IMG/VR virus record: IMGVR_UViG_3300022698_000087
Location: 1-63,855 of that record
Length of the DNA: 63,855 nucleotides
Origin: a virus
Reading direction: 5' to 3' (one strand)
A program made the translations under genes and the position numbers. The stretch's first letter is position 1. Each line of letters opens with the position of its first letter. A model generated the notes under the pieces. That model saw only the letters and a program-made list of their open reading frames with translations. It made no database searches and had not been told where the DNA came from. This document shows positions 3,033-9,167 of this stretch, piece after piece.

Positions 3033-3254
3033 TTATCGGACGCATGGTCTACTTGCCTCCATTAGCTTGATGGTCACAACTTTGTGTTCTCGAAAGTCTG
3101 TCCCCACAAGCCCGGCCTGCTGCATGGCGTCCCAGCTCTTTCTGAGACTATCGACCGAAGGCCACAGCCACCTGCCGCCCTCGTTCTGGACCCAGATTTT
3201 GCCGGAGACGCCATGTCTCAAGGCATACATAACAGATTGCGGGAGTTTGTTCAT
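3033..3254 (-). CDS. Hypothetical protein, 73 aa
   Basis: The ATG overlaps the rtcB stop (ATGA), so translation is coupled to rtcB. The protein has a W-rich middle (GGRWLWP) and the pattern SLRKSWDAMQQAG, typical of a small helical protein. The GTCCGATAA motif that recurs across this genome forms its last three codons including the stop. No family is recognised. Confidence 0.7.
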   Translation of the reverse strand: MNKLPQSVMYALRHGVSGKIWVQNEGGRWLWPSVDSLRKSWDAMQQAGLVGTDFREHKVVTIKLMEASRPCVR

Positions 3255-4453
3255 CCCTTAACAGAGACCAGCGGCCGCAGGATGTACTTCATTCTACACA
3301 GGTCCGCTTGATTTGCCATGACCTCTTCAATGTCTTTGTAGGCACCTGGAGCCTCGTCCAGCTTGTCTGGCGTAGACATGTCACACGCAACGCCAGCCGT
3401 CTCCAGCATCTCTTGCTGGAGATCTATGTCCAGTTTGTTCTTGGCGTCGGTTCGTGACATTGACCGACCGGCCCCATGGGACGTAGATAGATAGGACGCG
3501 ACATTTCCAGTGTGTTCCACAATATATGAAGTACTTCCCATAGATCCGGGAATGATTCCCAGGTTTCCTCGGTAGGGTCCGGCTACTCCCTTCCTGTGGA
3601 CAATGAGATTGTCTCCCATATGGTTCTCAACGCTGGCGTGGTTGTGACATATGTCAATAATCGATCCCCGGTCCACCTCAAGACTTCTGTACCTTGGCTT
3701 CAGTGCTTCAATAACTCGGCATAGAATGTGCTCACGATTTCTACGGGCGAACTCGATGCACAGCTCCATGTCTCGAATGTATTTCTTGAAGTATCGACTG
3801 TCCTTGTGAAAGAACGCTAGATCCCACGACTTTGGAATCGCCGAGAAATTGATGTTATTCTCTTCGGTGGCAATCCTATTCCAGTGATTGCAGGTCTTAT
3901 ATCCAAGGTTTCGAGATCCACTGTGGATCATCACCCACAATGTGTCTTCTTGGTCAGCCTGCACTTCGATGAAGTGATTGCCACCACCAAGAGTCCCCAA
4001 TTGATAGCGGGCCCTATCTCGTTCTTCCTGATAGACTGTCCCCATGTCACCATGCATTGGCATTTCAGTCCAATCACACGGCTCTTCGTTCCAGCTCTTT
4101 CCTACCTTGACATTGGCCAGGATTCTCTCACGAATGTCCCGCCGCTTGTCGTCCGACAACCGAGACCCTCTGGGCATTCCCTTGAGCCTGCAAGCGATCA
4201 TACCACAACCAATATCAACACCCACGGCGTTGGGCACAACTACGTCCTTTGTGGCCAGCACGCAGCCTATCGGCATACCGTAGCCACCGTGAGCGTCAGG
4301 CATAACGGCGATGTGCTTTCTAGCAAAGGGCAGGCTTTGGAGGTGCATTATCTGATCTCTGCACTTATCGTCCAGAGTTTCTGGATTCACCCAAAATAAT
4401 GCGTCCCACAAGGTGTTCCCGTATGCAGGATCTGCTATCCACTTCGTTATCAT
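3251..4453 (-). CDS. rtcB: RtcB-type RNA ligase
   Basis: RtcB joins RNA 2',3'-cyclic phosphate or 3'-phosphate ends to 5'-OH ends using GTP and Mn2+. The 400-residue protein has the family signatures: PDAHGGYG (52-59), GVDIGCGM with the metal-binding Cys83, GGGNHF (156-161), HSGSRNLG (177-184), and SHGAGRSMSR (325-334), which carries the guanylylated His326. The ATG at 4453 has GGAGGCAGAAAT and overlaps the upstream stop. In phages such ligases are thought to repair tRNAs cut by host anticodon nucleases; that role is inferred. Full length with no missing motif seen. Confidence 0.97.
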   Translation of the reverse strand: MITKWIADPAYGNTLWDALFWVNPETLDDKCRDQIMHLQSLPFARKHIAVMPDAHGGYGMPIGCVLATKDVVVPNAVGVDIGCGMIACRLKGMPRGSRLSDDKRRDIRERILANVKVGKSWNEEPCDWTEMPMHGDMGTVYQEERDRARYQLGTLGGGNHFIEVQADQEDTLWVMIHSGSRNLGYKTCNHWNRIATEENNINFSAIPKSWDLAFFHKDSRYFKKYIRDMELCIEFARRNREHILCRVIEALKPRYRSLEVDRGSIIDICHNHASVENHMGDNLIVHRKGVAGPYRGNLGIIPGSMGSTSYIVEHTGNVASYLSTSHGAGRSMSRTDAKNKLDIDLQQEMLETAGVACDMSTPDKLDEAPGAYKDIEEVMANQADLCRMKYILRPLVSVKG

Positions 4454-4758
4454 ATTTCTGCCTCCGTATTGTCGCGTATTTCTCTTAGCTTCTTCATCGC
4501 CCGAATAACTCGTTTGCCTCCGTCTGGATTGGAACATTGATGAGGAACTTCCTTTAGGATGTTCAGAGCCTCATCGATTCCAGTCCGCACTTCAGAGTAA
4601 AGTAGATTCAGAATCTTGGCTTTCGCCCTAATTTTATCGATCTCTGTATCATGTGTCCTATCAATAGAAACTCTGGACTGGACGTCGAGCTGAGCCTCCA
4701 CAAGTAGATGCCCGGCAACGCGGACGGTTCCTGTTCTGATGAACCTATGAACTTCCAT
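4450..4758 (-). CDS. Hypothetical helical protein, 102 aa
   Basis: The ATG at 4758 follows GGGGGAGACGAC; an in-frame start six codons upstream is less well placed. It overlaps both the upstream membrane gene and the rtcB start. The product is charged and mostly helical, without Cys clusters or membrane segments. Its position directly before rtcB suggests co-translation, but a link to RNA repair cannot be shown. Confidence 0.7.
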   Translation of the reverse strand: MEVHRFIRTGTVRVAGHLLVEAQLDVQSRVSIDRTHDTEIDKIRAKAKILNLLYSEVRTGIDEALNILKEVPHQCSNPDGGKRVIRAMKKLREIRDNTEAEI

Positions 4759-5827: not shown

Positions 5828-6274
5828 TCAGTTCTCCTCAATTAGTCCGTGCTCTCTCGGAGAATCACAACCAAGCAATTCTCCCTTCAGGTTTTCCAAG
5901 GCCTCCTCAATTGGTATGAGAAGGGTCAAGGCCATATCTCGCGTCCACTCATAAGTGTACGCCGTGACGTTGCTTCGCTTTCTATGGTAGGAGCTGGTCA
6001 AGTGACCAAGCTTCCTAATGGCCTCTAGGGCCTGTGCCTGTCTCTTGGCACCTATTCGATCAAACTTGTCCATCAGTGACTCTTCAGACCCATCTGTTCC
6101 TTCGCACTGTGATGGAGTCACAAGCGTAGGCTGCTGCGGCACATCGACGTCTGCCGGTGCCTCCTGGGCCTTTTTGCTGAAGTCAACCATGGACCATTTG
6201 CCACATCCAGATTCACTTCCTGTACAGTCATCAGTGTAGTGGCCACATGATAGACATTTGGTTGCAATGCTCAT
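5828..6274 (-). CDS. Zinc-knuckle hypothetical protein, 148 aa
   Basis: The ATG overlaps the upstream stop (ATGA at 6271-6274). The N terminus has CLSCGHYTDDC...C, a CxxC-type zinc site, followed by a low-complexity PT/E linker (residues 35-65) and a helical domain. No family is recognised. The layout of knuckle, linker and helical domain suggests an adaptor or nucleic-acid binder. Confidence 0.75.
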   Translation of the reverse strand: MSIATKCLSCGHYTDDCTGSESGCGKWSMVDFSKKAQEAPADVDVPQQPTLVTPSQCEGTDGSEESLMDKFDRIGAKRQAQALEAIRKLGHLTSSYHRKRSNVTAYTYEWTRDMALTLLIPIEEALENLKGELLGCDSPREHGLIEEN

Positions 6275-6474
6275 AGCTCTCTCCAGTTGATGATTCCTTC
6301 GCCCGCCAAGGCTTCCCGAATGTCTTCGTCATCATGGCTAGACCCAGGAAGACTGATGGTTGTTGTTTCTTCGTAACCTGCCGCATAGGTGACTTCCAGT
6401 GTCACTTCGTGGTGCATCCCTGCGGCCATCTGCCGATCATAATCGGCGTCTGCTTGTCTGTCGTCATCCACCAT
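6271..6474 (-). CDS. Acidic hypothetical protein, 67 aa
   Basis: The ATG at 6474 has GGAGAGAGAA before it. The product is acidic throughout (MVDDDRQADADYD...DDEDIREAL). It is the first gene after about 440 bp of structured, non-coding leader transcribed from the promoter at 6926-6954, so its expression may depend on that RNA. No family is recognised. Confidence 0.75.
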   Translation of the reverse strand: MVDDDRQADADYDRQMAAGMHHEVTLEVTYAAGYEETTTISLPGSSHDDEDIREALAGEGIINWREL

Positions 6475-6479
6475 TTCTC

Positions 6480-6919
6480 TCTCCTGTTCTCTGACCTACT
6501 GTAAAGTCGTGGGATGATCCAAACTGGTTTGGTCCATGGACCTTTCCAGTTTGGACTATCGGCCTATCCCGTATGGCCGGTCACGGGGTTTGACTCTTGG
6601 TCCTTGACCCATGACAATTATCGATTGCTGCCCCCTTTACTCTCCAGCTCCGAAGAGCTTTGTAGGCGTGGACAGTCTCTAGTTGACGCCTCGTTGTTCG
6701 GTCTGAGAACCTACAGTAAAAGCTGGCTCCGGAAGGTAACGATCCTTCATCTTCCTAGCCTCATGCGTGACACTGACTGGCAATCAATGTCACGATCCCT
6801 GCCAGATCAAAGAAAGCTTAGCCATACTTTCAAAGACTTTGGGGCAAGAGGCTAGGCCGCATTGCCATAATGCTACGGAGCCGTTAATGTCATTTTCAAA
6901 GAGCTTTGTTCCTCACTAC
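6480..6919 (-). ncRNA. Candidate structured RNA or long 5' leader (about 440 nt)
   Basis: A strong promoter (6926-6954) reads into a stretch without a credible gene on the minus strand. The transcript folds with many helices: 6848-6856 with 6754-6762 (9 bp), 6788-6794 with 6766-6772 (7 bp), 6732-6736 with 6743-6747, 6721-6726 with 6644-6649, 6711-6715 with 6661-6665, 6686-6690 with 6665-6669, a C(UUCG)G hairpin at 6646-6659, 6560-6564 with 6575-6579, and a symmetrical rod at 6519-6554 (9 bp, AAA/AAA internal loop, 5 bp). It ends just before the ribosome site of 6271-6474. No known RNA family is recognised. It could be a free RNA or a cis-acting leader. Confidence 0.5.
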
Positions 6920-6925
6920 ACCTAA

Positions 6926-6954
6926 AGTATACACGATATTTTCTTTAGATGCAA
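6926..6954 (-). promoter_or_regulatory. Promoter TTGCAT-17-TATACT
   Basis: -35 TTGCAT (6949-6954) and -10 TATACT (6926-6931) are 17 bp apart on the minus strand, with start region TATACTTTAGGTGTAG. It drives the structured region and then 6271-6474. A GTCCGATAA motif on the complement of 6984-6992 lies 29 bp upstream of the -35. Confidence 0.85.
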
Positions 6955-6979: not shown

Positions 6980-7216
6980 TCAGTTATCGGACTGAAGATC
7001 CTGAAGCTCCTCGGTTGTTTTTGCTCCAGGCTCATATACGAATAGGTATTGCTTCAGGTGGTCAAGATCTCGATAGGTATGGGTCACTTCATTGTGTCCC
7101 ACATGATCGTTCGTGATCCGAAGTTGATTGGTCCCCGCTACTTCGTAGATGATGTATCCCCACTGGCCCACCATCCATCGAACCTCATGTAGTGCCATGG
7201 CCTGTACGTTTCTCAT
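6980..7216 (-). CDS. Hypothetical protein, 78 aa
   Basis: The ATG at 7216 overlaps the stop of the metallohydrolase gene (ATGA). A second ATG six codons in is possible. The product is mixed and Tyr/His rich with no Cys cluster or membrane segment. The recurring GTCCGATAA motif forms part of its last codons. No family is recognised. Confidence 0.65.
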   Translation of the reverse strand: MRNVQAMALHEVRWMVGQWGYIIYEVAGTNQLRITNDHVGHNEVTHTYRDLDHLKQYLFVYEPGAKTTEELQDLQSDN

Positions 7217-7692
7217 AATCCGACTCTATTTATCTTGAATTGCCTATACAGCTCCATGGCAAACTTGTTCCCAATAAACTTTGTAACCATCTGCAGATGA
7301 ACTAAGCAGAAGATCGGCCCGTGTTTTTGTCCCCATGTCACAAGGTGAGCAAGCTCATGAATAGCTTGAAACTTGTCAGGGGACTTACCGAACTTCAATG
7401 TGAACGTCCCTGTGGCACGGTTCCTGCTGCAACATGCAGAGCCCGTTGTTCTTCTTCCGCTATATCGTACTGCAAAAGATACTTCACCGAAGTGAGTACA
7501 GAACCAAAGGCCTCTCACTATTTCCTTCAGGAACAGACTGTTTTCAGTAGGAGAGATCTGTGGGACATCAATCACTTTACGAAGGGCCCACTCTGATCTA
7601 TACTCTTTGATGCGTTGGAAGTCACGAGTCACCATTGGATACTTCGTAGCATCCCAAAGCGTCTTACAGTCCAGGTCGCTGTTTGTTATATA
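7213..7692 (-). CDS. Putative zinc metallohydrolase (HExxH), 159 aa
   Basis: The protein has HELAHLVTWGQKHG near its C terminus, a HExxH zinc motif with a downstream His, in the arrangement seen in small bacterial metallohydrolases of the TIGR04338 type. The start is uncertain: GTG at 7692 follows GGGGATAAGGCA and overlaps the upstream stop by a few bases, whereas the longest frame (GTG at 7794) has no ribosome site and overlaps by about 110 bp. A proteolytic or peptidoglycan role is possible; the substrate is unknown. Confidence 0.7.
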   Translation of the reverse strand, partial: YITNSDLDCKTLWDATKYPMVTRDFQRIKEYRSEWALRKVIDVPQISPTENSLFLKEIVRGLWFCTHFGEVSFAVRYSGRRTTGSACCSRNRATGTFTLKFGKSPDKFQAIHELAHLVTWGQKHGPIFCLVHLQMVTKFIGNKFAMELYRQFKINRVGL

Positions 7693-8105
7693 CACTGCCT
7701 TATCCCCAAGGTATATCCGCTTGTTCGGTTCATGGTCTTTCCCTTGAACGCCGAATCTAGTAGCTTCTGGAAGTTGCTTGCAATCTGTTGGCACCAGTGT
7801 TCTGCTAGTTCCGGATAGTCTTGGGAACTGTCAGTCCTTGGCACTACCGAGATTGACGTCAGACCACAGTACTCGTAAACAATCACTTCTGCATGATGAT
7901 TCTCAAGCAGAATATGCTCGTCATTGCTTGCCGAACGGTCGCAGGAGAAGAACGACGGCCATCTGGTTTCAATCAAGTCCATGATGTAGTCGATCTCTTC
8001 TCTCCACATATCCGCAGCAAGTGGATCGTCATCTTCGCACCAATCGGAAGAATCAATGTGGACCGTGATTGCCGCGTCATGATTATAGTATACGCCTCTG
8101 GGCAT
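7686..8105 (-). CDS. Hypothetical protein, 139 aa
   Basis: The ATG at 8105 has GGAGAGAGTAAA and is the first gene after the promoter at 8149-8177. The frame remains open further upstream but there crosses the promoter and the terminator, so the longer version is not real. The product is acidic in the N-terminal half, with several Cys and His. No family is recognised. Confidence 0.75.
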   Translation of the reverse strand: MPRGVYYNHDAAITVHIDSSDWCEDDDPLAADMWREEIDYIMDLIETRWPSFFSCDRSASNDEHILLENHHAEVIVYEYCGLTSISVVPRTDSSQDYPELAEHWCQQIASNFQKLLDSAFKGKTMNRTSGYTLGIRQCI

Positions 8106-8250: not shown

Positions 8251-9066
8251 TTAAAGAATGTCCAGAATCTCCTGGTCGAGATCCAGAACAGATTCGGCAT
8301 ATCCTATAACAGCACAATCAACAAGCCATTCTACATTGATGCCGACAAGTTTTCCATCTAGAAACATCGGGCCCCCACTGCATCCTGGAAAGGATAGCCC
8401 CTGATACAGAATGTAATTCTGGTTGTTTGTGTCTTTTTCATTTGACACCCGGCCCCACGTCATGATAAAATGCTGCTTCCACAAGTGCCCAGGAGGACAT
8501 CCAAAACAAATGATCTTTTCCCCAAGGTCCGGCCGTTTCATCGTCAGGTCCGCCCACACATCGCTAGAGCCGTCTATAATGACGGCCGCTAGATCATTGT
8601 CCGTGTCAAGCACGACTCGGACAATGTTCCACGTCTGGCCAGTGTATGCCGTCACAGCTCCAATTCCCCCGATGGTGAATAGCTTGGCCACATGTCTTGC
8701 CGTCAGCACAACATTATCGGACACAAATACTCCTGAGCCCATACCACCACCAAAGGCAGTCTCTATTCTAATAGAGACACACGGCCCTCGCAGCTGCTCG
8801 TATGTCAACCCGCCGTATCCATCGTCCGATAAAGAGTCCAACCCACCCTTTAGAGAGTCCAACCCACCCTTTAGAGAGTCCAACCCACCCTCTATGTCCT
8901 TCAAAGCGTGAAAGCTGGATAGGGCCCACTGGCGAGCGTTGTGGGATCGAAACTCGTTCTGGCTAGTTCTGATCTTCAGTTCCTTGACGTCTGCCTCCTG
9001 CCACGATGCCATCACCACCAGCAATCCCAGTACCAGTGTAATCAGAATGTTTGTTGCGGTCCTCAT
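8251..9066 (-). CDS. Membrane-anchored or exported trypsin-like serine protease, 271 aa
   Basis: The ATG at 9066 follows AGGAGAATTATTG. Residues 1-21 form a signal anchor (ILITLVLGLLVVMA), so the enzyme should work in the periplasm or at the cell surface. The catalytic triad is visible: His125 in TARHVA, Asp158 in DNDLAAV, Ser230 in PGCSGGP. Residues 59-79 are three tandem GGLDSLK repeats encoded by a 21-bp G-rich DNA repeat. A trypsin-fold protease that is not part of the head-maturation set is unusual in a phage; defence, lysis or superinfection roles are possible. Confidence 0.85.
   Translation of the reverse strand: MRTATNILITLVLGLLVVMASWQEADVKELKIRTSQNEFRSHNARQWALSSFHALKDIEGGLDSLKGGLDSLKGGLDSLSDDGYGGLTYEQLRGPCVSIRIETAFGGGMGSGVFVSDNVVLTARHVAKLFTIGGIGAVTAYTGQTWNIVRVVLDTDNDLAAVIIDGSSDVWADLTMKRPDLGEKIICFGCPPGHLWKQHFIMTWGRVSNEKDTNNQNYILYQGLSFPGCSGGPMFLDGKLVGINVEWLVDCAVIGYAESVLDLDQEILDIL
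8833..8893 (-). repeat. Tandem G-rich 21-bp repeat inside the protease gene
   Basis: Three 21-bp units carry AGGGTGGGTTGG on the coding strand and encode GGLDSLK repeats. The same GGGTGGGTTGG core occurs about nine times in non-coding DNA at 57689-57850, so the sequence appears to be maintained as DNA rather than only as protein. Confidence 0.8.
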
Positions 9067-9167
9067 CAATAATTCTCCTCATGTCTTCTGATATAGCTTT
9101 CCTTGTTGACTGCCGCAGCCGTCGCCAATTCATCCACAGAAAGACGACGGCCCTCAGTGACGCCCAC
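9066..9167 (-). CDS. Very small hypothetical protein, 33 aa, GTG start
   Basis: A GTG at 9167 opens 33 codons ending in a TGATG overlap with the protease ATG. The peptide (start GVTEGRRLSVDELATAAAVN) has a normal protein-like composition, unlike the overlapping longer frame. It fills the otherwise unexplained 100-bp gap after 9169-9522. The ribosome site is weak. Confidence 0.4.
   Translation of the reverse strand: MGVTEGRRLSVDELATAAAVNKESYIRRHEENY

Follow-up and report, generated by a model that had tools for sequence, protein, structure and literature searches.

Gene neighbourhood and relatives of the RNA locus

The window analysed here, i.e., the whole virus record of 63,855 bases, represents a siphovirus-like phage with phage primase, DNA polymerase, and tail genes, and with a portal protein that shares approximately 46% identity with its counterparts in Pseudomonas virus YuA and Bordetella phage relatives. 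The RNA locus is bounded by a 78-aa gene (6980-7216) on one side and a 67-aa gene (6271-6474) on the other and fills the gap between them; the genes around it lie on the minus strand. The gene for the RNA ligase RtcB is located 2 kb downstream of the RNA array, on the same strand. Upstream, genes for a trypsin-like serine protease (8251-9069, minus) and a protein with a HELAH metalloprotease-like motif (7213-7794, minus) are kept across relatives. No relative of a neighbouring 148-aa protein was found in bacterial genomes, and searches with single neighbour proteins gave no matches. The main features are the following:

6926..6954, minus: sigma-70-type promoter TTGCAT-N17-TATACT, recognized from sequence and conserved in relatives
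6896..6904, minus: boxA-like antitermination motif GCTCTTTGA
6724..6882, minus: unit 1, tRNA-like cloverleaf (ARAGORN intron mode, unconstrained fold, covariation)
6627..6724, minus: unit 2, four-helix RNA conserved across 4 phages (both sides changed in 6 pairs)
6722-6709, minus: first spacer-motif copy CUUUUACUGUAGGU, which is the 5' strand of unit 2 helix P1
6510..6570, minus: unit 3, a GGGAU/AUCCC stem enclosing a rod whose internal loop is AAA/AAA (predicted fold)
6494..6507, minus: second spacer-motif copy CUUUACAGUAGGUC, 3' of unit 3 (sequence)
3251..4537, minus: RtcB RNA ligase gene (phrog_1075, E 8e-107; PF01139, E 3.5e-97)

Contigs with the same gene order were obtained through relatives of the primase and then compared by sensitive blastn. 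The noncoding slot was detected in L003, L004, L011 (L067 denotes this contig too), and L069; L066 and L070 share the leader. In L005 and L068, nothing occupies the slot and the genes follow directly, and in L003 it is filled by ordinary tRNA-Ile and tRNA-Gln. RtcB is encoded downstream in the window, L003, L004, L005, L066, and L070. In L003, the tRNA genes are directly followed by a gene (L003:17392-18201) for a protein of 270 aa in which the motif KHNG resembles that of ATP-dependent ligases; it matches PF01068 weakly (18.6 bits, cut-off 26.2) and is perhaps a second repair ligase in the slot.

A predicted untranslated transcript carrying an array of structures

The original prediction assumed a good promoter reading into a region with no credible open reading frame, and both statements hold. 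The promoter, on the minus strand, consists of TTGCAT (6954-6949) and TATACT (6931-6926) boxes separated by a 17-nt spacer and is conserved in six related contigs (L003, L004, L011, L069, L070, and L066); it escaped generic promoter scans, whose 9-of-12 rule it does not reach. Transcription presumably starts near 6919. The boxA-like motif occurs as a single copy in the window, against 0.78 expected by chance, and its CTTTGA core is kept in 7 of 7 aligned leaders. In rRNA operons, boxA is described as bound by NusB/NusE (PMC4807359). A 113-aa plus-strand ORF (6514-6855) was rejected: it is antisense to the neighbour genes, it matches relatives only where the RNA is conserved, and it is not open in L004. 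Promoter, boxA, and the lack of translation together point to an untranslated product. The minus-strand RNA 6921-6475 is predicted to be more stable than its shuffles (-158.3 vs -131.7 +/- 5.9 kcal/mol, z -4.5, reached by 0 of 100 shuffles). The plus-strand fold of the region gives z -3.9, and a plus-strand transcript, being antisense to the neighbouring genes, was set aside.

The structural elements named from the sequence alone were recovered as well. The pairing of 9 bp noted across some 90 bases joins CCUAGCCUC (6856-6848) to GAGGCUAGG (6762-6754), within the unit 1 anticodon arm; in unit 2, AGCUC/GAGCU is capped by the UUCG loop; and the AAA/AAA rod lies at 6557-6517, in unit 3. The proposal of a structured RNA outside known families agrees with the lack of any Rfam family match, and covariation among homologues, named in advance as a check able to overturn the proposal, was looked for and found in units 1 and 2. 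What has to be revised is the idea of one RNA of about 440 nt and of unrecognized kind. Instead, two or more independent structures are arrayed at the locus, and the first is an insert-bearing tRNA cloverleaf. A single large RNA was rejected since the modules come and go separately, L004 having lost the body of unit 1 and L066 and L070 being without unit 2.

Unit 1, a tRNA-like cloverleaf

Unit 1 has the 7-bp acceptor, 4-bp D, 5-bp anticodon, and 5-bp T stems that define a tRNA cloverleaf, with discriminator A6724 and no encoded CCA. Its parts are:

6882-6876/6731-6725, minus: acceptor stem
6873-6859, minus: D arm
6856-6852/6758-6754, minus: anticodon stem
6759..6851, minus: 93-nt insert in the anticodon arm (predicted fold: 4 bp added to the stem, followed by a three-way junction bearing two hairpins)
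6748-6732, minus: T arm

In intron mode, ARAGORN made one call in the window, c[6724,6882], and none in 30 shuffles. The same mode called the L011 copy and two copies in L069 (L069a and L069b), and looser settings added L070 and L066. About seven other hits were made among 136 real loci; at this rate, any given 500-base slot is unlikely to be hit by chance, and chance does not account for the repetition at one position. Among these other hits, L017 proved to be a chimera of overlapping tRNAs, and L096 and L108 look like chance. A tRNA cloverleaf with an AT-rich 49-nt insert in the anticodon loop was also called at L039:2485-2622, on an RtcB-bearing 208-kb phage contig, and is possibly a related oddity. 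The unconstrained minimum-energy fold gives the cloverleaf, with the anticodon arm opening into a three-way junction, in the window, L011, and L069a copies; no such cloverleaf appears in the corresponding fold of L069b or L070. The Rfam tRNA model RF00005 scored 38.6 and 28.8 bits (cut-off 29) on the two L069 copies, with anticodon loops of approximately 101 and 74 nt, and its gathering score was not reached in the window.

The main support for unit 1 comes from covariation. In the alignment of five related copies, with the inserts excised and 70 columns retained, 97.1% of the cells are paired and 14 of 21 pairs are changed on both sides. None of 500 shuffles reached any of the measures, and slid structures gave at most 6 doubly changed pairs. 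The compensatory changes fall in all four helices. In every copy, the D and T arms leave almost no freedom in where the anticodon-stem strands lie, and this helix was therefore not freely picked.

It could be argued that these are decayed, functionless tRNA genes. The T and D loops are degenerate in some copies, and in L004 the body of unit 1 is lost, reduced to a bare acceptor-like hairpin (L004:15255-15283, GGGGCC-CCGU-GGCCCC). The degenerate T loop of the window copy, AUCGUUA, fits a mimic and fits decay too. However, compensatory changes in all four helices of unit 1 and the strongly conserved sequence of unit 2 speak against decay, which we regard as highly improbable. As side observations, the L004 hairpin resembles a terminator just upstream, and L011:759-830 (minus) holds a further tRNA-like unit without insert; it scores 45.4 bits against Rfam tRNA, and U33 seems to be missing from its anticodon loop.

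The insert in the anticodon arm

The insert, variable in sequence among copies, prolongs the anticodon stem (to 9 bp in the window) instead of leaving a loop. A decoding tRNA requires U33 and a purine at position 37, and a 7-nt anticodon loop with these residues is absent from the unspliced unit 1 RNA. Every possible cut was tried in both stem registers, a test that random sequence passes in 28% of registers. No cut gives a decoding-competent loop in L069a and L070, in either register, and such cuts exist in one register only in the window and L011 copies; thus, two of five cloverleaf copies can form no such loop.

These results bear on the possibility of unit 1 being a genuine tRNA gene interrupted by an anticodon-arm intron, which would be excised by a host or phage nuclease, the halves being joined by RtcB. 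The good tRNA bodies in L069, the insertion into the anticodon loop, where tRNA introns also lie, the presence of RtcB in the same gene block, and the ordinary tRNAs filling the slot in L003 are all consistent with it. However, the decoding loop fails in the copies named above, and no tRNA splicing endonuclease or archease was found in the window record. RtcB is present in most relatives, but in L067 (11639-11926, minus), which has kept units 1 and 2, only a C-terminal part is left and a TGA interrupts it; no RtcB was found on the L069 contig, which ends approximately 4.7 kb past the RNA. Taken together, the failed decoding loops, the continuation of the stem, the lack of endonuclease and archease in the window record, and the state of RtcB in L067 and L069 favour a non-decoding tRNA-like RNA. 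We keep splicing as a rival and consider it unlikely. In a more specific form of it, a non-group-I intron in a phage tRNA gene would be removed by an anticodon-directed nuclease, with RtcB as the sealing ligase; this hitherto unknown bacterial form of protein-based tRNA splicing appears somewhat less likely again.

The insert could also be compared to the intervening sequences of bacterial 23S rRNA, being trimmed by RNase III with the halves left unjoined, or simply being tolerated. To our knowledge, no intervening sequence has been found in a tRNA. The extension of the stem as a long duplex of variable sequence suits this explanation, and intervening sequences are known in rDNA (mentioned in PMC3984707). 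However, a nicked, non-decoding tRNA gives no reason for compensatory pairing in the acceptor and anticodon stems, which makes this explanation very doubtful. The matched base-pair changes in related phages suggest rather that unit 1 is a working RNA that imitates tRNA and does not read codons.

Units 2 and 3 and the spacer motif

Unit 2 is the best conserved stretch of the locus, with strong sequence conservation. It comprises four helices: P1 (6722-6715/6641-6634, minus), P2, P3 with a nearly invariant 16-nt loop, and P4 capped by UUCG, which in L011 is enlarged by a long hairpin. In the alignment of the window, L004, L011, and L069 copies, in which P1 was positioned manually for L069 and L011 and two copies had their loops shortened, 85 of 86 cells are paired. 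The doubly changed pairs fall in P1 (four), P2 (one), and P4 (one), and slid controls gave 0-1. P3 is invariant (GAACAACGAGGCGUCAaCUA...CUGUCCACGCCUACAA, with the loop nearly so) and has no covariation support. The covariance model R1 finds unit 2 in these four phages only, among 65 loci and 19 whole records. Exact-pattern scans returned the same phages only in viral contigs and nothing in bacterial genome contigs. Unit 2 is a new, previously undescribed compact RNA, placed at the same locus in all four phages and with a structure separate from that of unit 1; it probably serves as a binding site for protein or is one more tRNA-shaped element.

The nearly invariant loop, such as a binding site would have, raises the question whether the array is a cis-acting leader, i.e., an element that mediates processive antitermination or regulation of the operon with RtcB. 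The boxA-like motif and promoter lie directly upstream, and a scan between the array and the RtcB gene revealed no convincing terminator. However, a leader would not need a cloverleaf with tRNA consensus residues, and L005 and L068 have the same genes without the array. A leader role is improbable.

Counterparts of unit 3, with other sequences, were recognized by eye in the same place in L004 and L011. The spacer motif is also present 3' of units in L004, L011, and L069, and a motif like GCUUUUAnUGUAG follows most units; it may be a processing site.

Proposed function

From the computed structures, their covariation, the shared position, and the conserved promoter and boxA, we infer a model of processing, stability, and a decoy role. 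The array's own promoter would drive an untranslated transcript containing a small set of structured RNAs, and the boxA-like signal would shield it from Rho, as in rRNA operons. Unit 1 would be tRNA-derived, with acceptor, D, anticodon-stem, and T helices kept and the anticodon loop replaced by the folded 93-nt insert. RNase P and RNase Z of host tRNA maturation could then excise and stabilize it, and no codon would be read. In laboratories, "tRNA scaffolds" are built to stabilize RNA, and unit 1 may be their natural counterpart. It is proposed, with about even chances in our judgement, that the array consists of non-decoding tRNA mimics that compete for tRNA-acting host factors, most plausibly the anticodon nucleases of phage defence. 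The mimics would act alongside RtcB, which reseals cleaved tRNAs. The presence of RtcB does not prove a decoy, as it is present in L005 without the array RNA and phage tRNA clusters are often near RtcB. It is also worth noticing that the independent sequences are few, five cloverleaves and four unit 2 copies.

We know of no phage tRNA mimic in which a large folded domain takes the place of the anticodon arm. The open-access literature yielded no insert-bearing phage tRNA-like RNA, which is weak evidence of absence; standard tRNA scans overlook such insert-bearing genes. A cloverleaf, a new covarying element, and RtcB in one block offer a test case for phage RNA decoys, and even tRNA splicing, directed against anticodon-loop nucleases.

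Comparison with known RNAs

None of 4227 Rfam models reached its gathering score in the window, and none was convincing at E 10 in the region. The best weak match by E-value, IMES-2, scored 16.1 bits of the 54.7 needed, and ARAGORN found no tmRNA in the window. ROOL and GOLLD are, like the array, large structured phage RNAs; they differ in size and architecture and have no Rfam match in the window. A likeness may be drawn to T4 RNA C and RNA D, stable RNAs that are encoded in a phage tRNA operon and have no known role; no insert-bearing cloverleaf is known to us for either.

Group I introns, which are approximately 200 nt or more in length, occur in bacterial tRNA anticodon loops, the same arm in which unit 1 carries its insert. 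However, 93 nt is far below known group I size, and no group I Rfam model matched up to E 10. According to a 2014 review, all phage group I introns described till then were in protein-coding genes, despite the many phage tRNA genes (PMC3984707). The introns of archaeal and eukaryotic tRNAs share with unit 1 the position in the anticodon loop, and RtcB-type ligation is possible; the differences are the lack of a splicing endonuclease in the record, the lack of a consistent functional loop, and the bacterial-type promoter.

The bacterial Y RNA, YrlA, was considered as a candidate and rejected: its model has no match in the window, where neither a Ro-binding stem nor a Ro60/Rsr/TROVE gene was found, and a match in L011 scored 20.9 bits (cut-off 69), with broken outer pairs and no Ro60. 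In the YrlA model, an outer stem encloses the T arm followed by the D arm, whereas unit 1 keeps the normal tRNA order. The two are nevertheless alike in setting, YrlA of the rsr-yrlBA-rtcBA RNA repair operon being, similarly to this locus, a tRNA-mimicking noncoding RNA near RtcB, and its tRNA-like domain was proposed to be in competition with an anticodon nuclease (PMC7790460).
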